DNA of 40,624 nt, from the NCBI GenBank assembly GCA_018303445.1, contig JAGVYE010000050.1:1-40624 (forward strand). The letters are read 5' to 3'. The notes beneath the pieces were generated by a model, which saw nothing but the letters and a program-made list of their open reading frames with translations, had not been told where the DNA came from and did not search any database. The DNA comes from Candidatus Woesearchaeota archaeon (lineage in GTDB: Archaea > Nanobdellota > Nanobdellia > Woesearchaeales > GW2011-AR9). Each line of letters opens with the position of its first letter. Within the stretch, counting starts at the first letter, position 1. Position numbers and translations under genes: made by a program. Positions 649-29,193 of this stretch are shown here, piece by piece.

Positions 649-764
649 AGTTATCTCTTTTTTCCTTTGAGATTGCTAATTTAGTGCGTAATGTTTAAAA
701 ATGATTCCTTTTTTAATTAGAGCAAGGCCTCGTAGCTTAGCCTGGCTTGAGCGCACGACTGATA

Positions 765-802
765 TCTTGGCGGAGTAAAATCTTATAATGCCAAGGACTG
801 AC
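765..802 (+). other. tRNA intron at or near canonical position 37/38 (38 nt)
   Basis: CTTGGC(766-771)/GCCAAG(790-795) helix inside the anticodon loop; stem resumes at 804. Exact ends are ambiguous by 1-2 nt. Confidence 0.8.
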
Positions 803-818
803 ATCGTGAGGTCCCCAG

Positions 819-908
819 CAAACTTTTGGCGACGCAAAAGTTTGATAAAAAGTCACTCTGGTGGGGCATAAAGTCCCACGACATACGAAATGCCAAGAGT
901 TTGGGGAA
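819..908 (+). other. Noncanonical T-arm tRNA intron (about 90 nt, near position 53/54)
   Basis: CCCAG(814-818) is separated from its TTCAAAT-CTGGG partner by 90 nt. The insert is closed by a 12-bp helix CAAACTTTTGGC(819-830)/GCCAAGAGTTTG(892-903) with one G-U pair. Confidence 0.82.
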
Positions 909-1118
909 TTCAAATCTGGGCGGGGCCATTTTATTCTTTTCTCACAGGCCGATGCTTTAAAGAAAGCGGTACGCGTACCATGCATATACCATCCGAACCT
1001 TACCAGTATAGCGTTGATGGTCTGAGACAACCTGTCGAAGCGATACGATCCGCGTACTCAAATTGATTCTTATATTTCTTGGAGATATTTTTTAAATAGG
1101 CCCTTCTTCGACGGTTAT

Positions 1119-29055: not shown

Positions 29056-29193
29056 GCCACGGTGGCACAATCTGGTACTGCGCAGGATTGCTAGGTGCGC
29101 TGGTTTGAAAAGGGAATTTCCTCTCAATGATAATCAGTTCCGCGCAGATATCCTGTCCCTCTGGGATTCCCGGTTCAAATCCGGGCCGTGGCG
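29056..29193 (+). tRNA. tRNA-Ser(GCU) with anticodon-loop intron
   Basis: Acceptor GCCACGG(29056-29062)/CCGTGGC(29186-29192), anticodon stem CAGGA/TCCTG, anticodon GCT(29090-29092), long variable arm TCCC-TCT-GGGA, T-arm CCCGG-TTCAAAT-CCGGG. Confidence 0.92.
29094..29149 (+). other. tRNA-Ser intron (about 56 nt) near position 37/38
   Basis: Insert between A29093 and A29150 in the anticodon loop; GCGC/GCGC complementarity near its ends. Confidence 0.8.

Follow-up and report, generated by a model that had tools for sequence, protein, structure and literature searches.

Non-canonical tRNA introns, several introns within one tRNA and transposition of introns are all known in archaea, and PMC4033280 reports them chiefly from Thermoproteales. 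In Caldiarchaeum, a tRNA gene is disrupted at one locus by an integrated mobile element (Sugahara 2012, PMC3293823); the insertion, at a tRNA-Thr locus, is 1.9 kb long and carries a putative recombinase, and one model holds that the incoming attachment site already bore an intron (PMC3293823). Integrative elements of the SSV/pNOB8 type, as described in that same source (PMC3293823), are marked by direct repeats of a gene terminus and by a gene restored on one side only, tRNA ends being common targets. Group I introns are known in Woesearchaeota rRNA (PMC6125680).

The locus analysed here lies in a window (the whole stretch of DNA under study) of 40,624 nt from an archaeon of the Woesearchaeota type, and comprises a tRNA-Ile(GAU) gene with two inserts, the second of which contains a copy of a short repeat hereafter called E. 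As with the Thermoproteales-type introns, positions in the D-arm, the anticodon and the T-arm are used, similar introns are found in different tRNAs and several may occur in one gene; the differences are that the intron here belongs to an interspersed element whose two hairpins covary and which is found outside tRNA genes as well, and that the host lineage is not crenarchaeal. The Caldiarchaeum locus offers the same succession of 5' tRNA fragment, inserted element and restored tRNA gene, and the same tie between integration and intron gain, whereas E, ~75-110 nt long and non-coding, has many copies across the order and itself takes the place of the intron. With the SSV/pNOB8 type it shares the duplicated gene termini and the one-sided restored gene, but it comes without an integrase, its many targets include protein-gene ends and tRNA 5' ends, and its duplications are 12-72 nt long. 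It is unrelated to the Woesearchaeota rRNA group I introns, as judged by size and by Rfam. MITEs and non-autonomous IS200/IS605 elements are likewise short and non-coding, with hairpins near both ends and, as E appears to be, under selection for DNA pairing; IS200/IS605 elements are not known to make target duplications, whereas E has flanking duplications. No published description of E was found in the open-access literature, to which the search was confined. E is a previously unnamed two-hairpin element, probably mobile.

A tRNA-Ile(GAU) gene interrupted twice

The sequence-only reading had proposed a tRNA-Ile(GAU) gene at 726-928 interrupted at 765-802 and at 819-908, and all these coordinates hold. 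The features of the locus are listed below, with the evidence for each in brackets (A3 and A4 are alignments of E copies described in the next section, and BHB stands for bulge-helix-bulge).

726..764, + strand: exon 1 of tRNA-Ile(GAU), positions 1-37, with the anticodon GAT at 761-763 (cloverleaf; ARAGORN on the spliced form)
765..802, + strand: intron 1, at the canonical position 37/38, with an imperfect (relaxed) BHB (pairing probabilities; relatives with an intron there too)
803..818, + strand: exon 2, positions 38-53, ending in the T-stem 5' strand CCCAG (ARAGORN; exons 2 and 3 contiguous in the related genome G028)
813..816, + strand: 5' strand CCCC of the 4-bp BHB central helix, exonic, its partner GGGG at 903-906 being intronic (pair probabilities 0.91-0.96)
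819..908, + strand: intron 2, within the T-arm at 53/54, a copy of E with a 3' extension (BHB; cmsearch)
819..844, + strand: hairpin 1 of E, strands CAAACTTTTG/CAAAAGTTTG at 819-828/835-844 (A3 and A4 alignments; covariation)
861..879, + strand: hairpin 2 of E, GTGGGGC/GTCCCAC, followed by the conserved GACA at 880-883 (covariation in A3 and A4)
892..903, + strand: third strand GCCAAGAGTTTG, an inverted copy of 819-830, forming the BHB intronic helix (sequence; pair probabilities)
903..906, + strand: 3' strand GGGG of the BHB central helix (pair probabilities)
909..928, + strand: exon 3, positions 54-73, comprising the T-loop, the T-stem 3' strand, the acceptor 3' strand and the discriminator A (ARAGORN; sequence)

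As had been claimed, a complete cloverleaf needs both segments removed: the 75 nt left, with intact exons and every stem paired, are called tRNA-Ile(gat) by ARAGORN, which makes no call when 819-908 is kept in. That the gene would easily be missed by standard callers was also correct, ARAGORN returning no tRNA from the raw window and Rfam no gathering-level match. The predicted 12-bp helix 819-830/892-903 was confirmed; it contains a single G-U pair, and in the minimum-energy fold its intronic stretch 820-830/892-902 reaches a probability of 0.98-0.99 from the third pair inward. The pairing suggested between CCC (814-816) and GGG (904-906) is real and slightly larger than proposed, since it joins CCCC (813-816) to GGGG (903-906), again in the minimum-energy fold. 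This 4-bp helix is bordered by two 3-nt bulges, A817-G818-C819 and A907-A908-U909, i.e. the arrangement that defines a BHB. Folding of the complete unit lies 3.8 standard deviations below that of shuffles (z = -3.8) and is therefore not due to chance. In archaea, the splicing cut falls after the second base of the bulge; the positions of the two bulges thus place the expected cuts at 818/819 and 908/909, which would make the intron exactly 819-908 (53/54). From these features we infer that 819-908 is spliced from tRNA-Ile(GAU) in vivo. At the 37/38 insert (765-802), the pairing probabilities indicate a weaker BHB, of the relaxed and imperfect kind.

The genome encodes one predicted catalytic subunit of the EndA endonuclease, of 198 aa (PF01974 match, E 1.9e-28). 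The nearest solved structures are the catalytic subunit of Nanoarchaeum equitans (closest chain 3iey_A, E 2e-36) and the M. jannaschii enzyme; the PF01974 search of the genome gave no second subunit. According to PMC12397907, the enzymes of nanoarchaea and crenarchaea tolerate diverse intron structures. When the mature tRNA-Ile(GAU) was searched against its own genome, only its own exons and weaker matches to other tRNAs were recovered; the assembly, at 95.5% completeness, thus yielded no other tRNA-Ile(GAU), a result that falls short of proving the absence of a second gene. Despite a completeness of ~95%, the ordinary Rfam model recognizes just 11 tRNAs in this genome, which suggests that most of its tRNA genes are interrupted. 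Another tRNA gene with an internal insert was noted in the window at 29056-29193 (+ strand; 41 bits with the tRNA model, ARAGORN silent), and an Ile-like tRNA with the apparent anticodon UAU at G000:C28:10483-10600 (L045, L262) appears to have a 37/38 intron plus a T-loop intron, the latter of another sequence.

Comparison with relatives revealed the corresponding empty site. The family includes at least six genomes (G028, G032, G005, G014, G007 and G003) whose tRNA-Ile(GAU) has an uninterrupted T-arm, and GGTCCCCAGTTCAAATCTGGGCGGGGCCA in G028 is identical to exons 2 and 3 of the window once joined; a 37/38 intron like that of the window is present in the tRNA-Ile(GAU) of several relatives. 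Because the T-arms of relatives are uninterrupted and the joined sequence of G028 is identical, the T-arm intron is most simply regarded as a gain, with exact boundaries, in the lineage of the window. The structure, the orthologous empty sites and the failure to find another copy in the assembly all support a doubly interrupted tRNA having a BHB intron in its T-arm. Reading 819-908 as an intron was right but incomplete: the insert is also one copy of the order-wide interspersed element E.

Architecture, distribution and covariation of element E

E consists of hairpin 1, an A-rich linker, hairpin 2 and then GA(C/A). In the family alignment, hairpin 1 is for instance AAACCTTTTGGC..GCAAAAnGTTTG, the linker is close to GATCAAATTCaCTCAAG, and hairpin 2 (GTGGG..CCCAC) is followed by GACA. 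The 5' strand of hairpin 1 has an alternative partner, 892-903, in the splicing-competent fold, and a strand equivalent to 892-903 is present in both other copies of the window's genome. The three copies of this genome reside in three tRNA genes, i.e. similar introns in different tRNAs. That of the window scores 61.2 bits with cmsearch (E 7e-12), against a model for which it is one of the 32 founding copies, the independent copies being those of A4. The copy on contig C39 is 86-87% identical to the window's intron and occupies the same T-arm position, between the flanks CCCAG and TTCGAATCTGGG; its host gene has a D-arm of the tRNA-Val type by eye, brute-force joining having left the isotype unsettled. 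The third copy, on contig C28, is 77% identical, lies at 37/38 of tRNA-Glu(UUC) and has its own BHB (CTTT/AAGG).

A covariance model built from four copies (R1) found matches in 20 of the 49 genomes of the family, with ten in one genome. A second model (R2), built from the 32-copy set A3 and applied with a match threshold of E<=0.01, detected E in 82 of the 288 genomes of the order, with up to 15 copies per genome; these counts are lower bounds, ~16 candidates having been scored per genome. Within a phylum sample of 279 genomes, none was found outside the order (39 of the 39 genomes with matches belong to it). Full-scoring copies were present in two MAG records labelled Candidatus Woesearchaeota and Nanoarchaeota, with the scores of G020 and G010, both from the window's family.

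The two hairpins covary. Among the 32 copies of A3, 11 of 16 pairs do so, with a score reached by none of 500 shuffles. A4 gathers 89 order-level copies, none of which had been used in building R2: 14 of the 16 pairs show compensatory change, with 279 compensatory cells (0 of 500 shuffles), and 95.7% of the cells are paired, in an alignment fitted to the model and hence favouring the structure (sliding the partners by one column brought pairing to ~50%). G-U pairs account for 11 of 1341 cells (<1%), below the 58 mismatches. This scarcity suggests that selection on the pairing of E acts on DNA strands rather than on RNA.

Sites occupied by E

As a tRNA intron, E is found at four positions: in the D-loop, at 37/38, at 53/54 and at 59/60. 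The 53/54 copies in the T-arm are those of the window and of C39. At 59/60, in the T-loop, ten copies are preceded by GTTCRA and followed by YGAAAG; counting by this signature replaced an automatic count of tRNA introns by brute-force joining, which was dropped for its high null rate (28 real versus 16 null). By inspection, the 37/38 copies include that of C28 and several others, and D-loop copies without duplication are L061, L123 and L155. The initial view of such introns as unusual needs amending, since they are not rare here: T-loop or T-arm introns recur across this archaeal order. A second type of T-loop intron, GCCAGTTACACTAGGCGAGTCGTACTCAGGTGGGGC..., was seen at L028, L037, L080 and L088 (genomes G001, G025 and G069); its hairpin 2 is as in E and its first part is different, and it is possibly a subfamily.

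Outside tRNA genes, the following cases were identified by inspection. At L107 (G160:C75:5890-5957), E lies in an apparent intron of 16S rRNA, between GGATTAGAT and ACCCGAGTAGTCC. In four genomes (L058, L063, L068 and L135), it is inserted antisense at the same place of the rnpB 5' domain, and these copies adjoin GGACTTTCCTC, the complement of GAGGAAAGTCC. In one genus (G161 and G192), many antisense copies (L150, L151, L170-L173 and L177) separate a Shine-Dalgarno-like GGAGG from the start codon of a gene. At L115 and L147 (G104), copies of E follow one another head to tail, repeating every ~65-75 nt with no gene fragment in between.

Duplicated gene ends and their polarity

Flanking duplicates were found at 45 of 132 copies of E, with scores from 12 to 59 (mismatched-flank pairs gave at most 11); a few of the 45 are tandem E arrays. 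The duplicates, of the length given above, correspond to tRNA 5' ends (D-loop insertion), tRNA 3' ends (T-loop insertion) and protein-gene starts or ends, by-eye candidates for the latter including SecY-like and SRP54-like termini. In many of these X-E-X copies the duplicate X immediately adjoins E. The polarity is fixed: in each of the 21 duplications where ARAGORN finds a tRNA, hairpin 2 faces the restored gene and hairpin 1 the fragment, and the protein-gene cases, judged by long open frames, show the same orientation. Codon differences between protein-gene duplicates are 24 synonymous versus 9 non-synonymous overall, and 22 versus 1 for the six clearest genes, which were picked after the results were known. 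Because the polarity is fixed and the differences are mostly synonymous, an integration event bringing in a homologous gene terminus, of the kind known from SSV and pNOB8-type elements, is favoured over simple duplication. Tandem E-X-E-X arrangements (e.g. L102 and L140) and an independent second insertion into the same tRNA-Lys gene in a sister species fit such integration.

A comparison of intergenic sites in two congeneric species gave no clean before/after pair, left flanks not being conserved, and disclosed a decayed copy of E at one orthologous locus as well as the tRNA-Lys insertion just mentioned. Duplication of a gene terminus, with one copy restoring the gene, is a feature of the 45 copies and was not seen at the window's copy. 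The tRNA-intron copies, that of the window included, have no duplication above the null, and for this reason their route of insertion may differ.

Search for a mobilizing enzyme and for known relatives

No recombinase was found beside E and no convincing E in the integrase neighbourhoods examined; E itself is non-coding. Tyrosine recombinases are found in genomes with and without E, so that their association is uninformative. A link to IS200/IS605 was set aside, the Y1 transposase being absent from the window's genome, present in 5 of 24 genomes and not tracking E. As to known RNA families, Rfam gave nothing relevant at E<=2, and E is absent from Rfam 15. Introns of group I or group II were rejected on the lack of an Rfam match and on size, 90 nt being too short for their catalytic core; by eye, conserved nucleotides of self-cleaving ribozyme cores are missing. 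A pattern scan of viral contigs produced one hit, which does not score with the model, and a viral origin was not retained. Pattern hits in unrelated bacteria and in Methanococcoides were attributed to chance, with the exception of one weak covariance-model score of 20 bits.

Weighing the explanations

Our preferred explanation, to which we give a probability of about 0.7, is that the T-arm insert is both a BHB intron and a copy of E, a miniature non-coding integrative element mobile within the order, whose intragenic copies persist by means of EndA. Mobility is invoked because copies are found outside tRNA genes and are flanked by duplicated gene ends. E, with a copied gene terminus next to hairpin 2, would recombine site-specifically with the homologous end of a tRNA or protein gene and become integrated there; the gene would thereby be restored and its old terminus would stay behind as the fragment on the hairpin-1 side. 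Sense copies inside tRNA or rRNA genes would persist where the flanking strands form a bulge-helix-bulge, with the host EndA cutting E out and a ligase joining the exons. In the window, the process would have taken place between positions 53 and 54 of tRNA-Ile(GAU). A point against this explanation is that the lengths of the duplications and the targets vary beyond what is usual for one integrase.

The X-E-X layout, with X directly at E in so many copies, could also come from a transposon that makes long target-site duplications and brings no replacement gene end; this is unlikely given the fixed polarity between the orientation of E and the restored gene, an orientation that target-site duplications do not have, and given the synonymous bias, which is unexpected if one duplicate decays neutrally. 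Ordinary transposition of a tRNA intron, in which a BHB intron is copied between tRNA genes through similar exons without any separate mobile element, is documented (Fujishima 2010, as cited in PMC4033280). Copying of this kind is likely for the two T-arm copies of the window's genome, which share their position, near-identical T-stem flanks and 86-87% identity. As an account of E as a whole it is quite improbable, because E is also placed where tRNA splicing cannot operate: between duplicated protein-gene ends, in tandem arrays and, antisense, in rnpB and ahead of start codons.

The strong covariation of both hairpins and the location of E next to gene starts or ends might instead point to a conserved structured RNA, such as a cis-regulator or a guide RNA, hosted in introns and not mobile as DNA. 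We give this little credence: RNA helices would not be so poor in G-U pairs, and E occurs in both orientations relative to genes, with duplications at its flanks and no Rfam entry. That the locus is simply a dead tRNA gene with two inserts would agree with standard tools seeing no tRNA there, but is very improbable in view of the intact, fully pairing exons, of the perfect BHB at 53/54 and of the lack of any other tRNA-Ile(GAU) among the sequences of this genome.

Significance for tRNA intron gain

With the integrative element as the preferred reading, we would go one step further only tentatively, at somewhat less than even odds: E may represent a new class of mobile elements, restricted to a single archaeal order and persisting in essential genes either by rebuilding their ends or by being removed from the transcript by EndA, the gain of tRNA introns in the D-loop, anticodon loop, T-stem and T-loop being a by-product. 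On the preferred reading, mobile DNA is linked to how archaeal tRNA introns arise. Earlier proposals on how such introns are gained called upon the integration of an element, at the one Caldiarchaeum locus, or, in Thermoproteales, upon transposition deduced from similar sequences. In the present case a single small family combines, over dozens of genomes, repeats that duplicate gene ends and BHB introns at four tRNA positions, and through it a connection of tRNA introns with mobile DNA becomes testable. Introns of the E type may also account for the failure of tRNA annotation in genomes like that of the window, where the Rfam model recognizes so few tRNAs.
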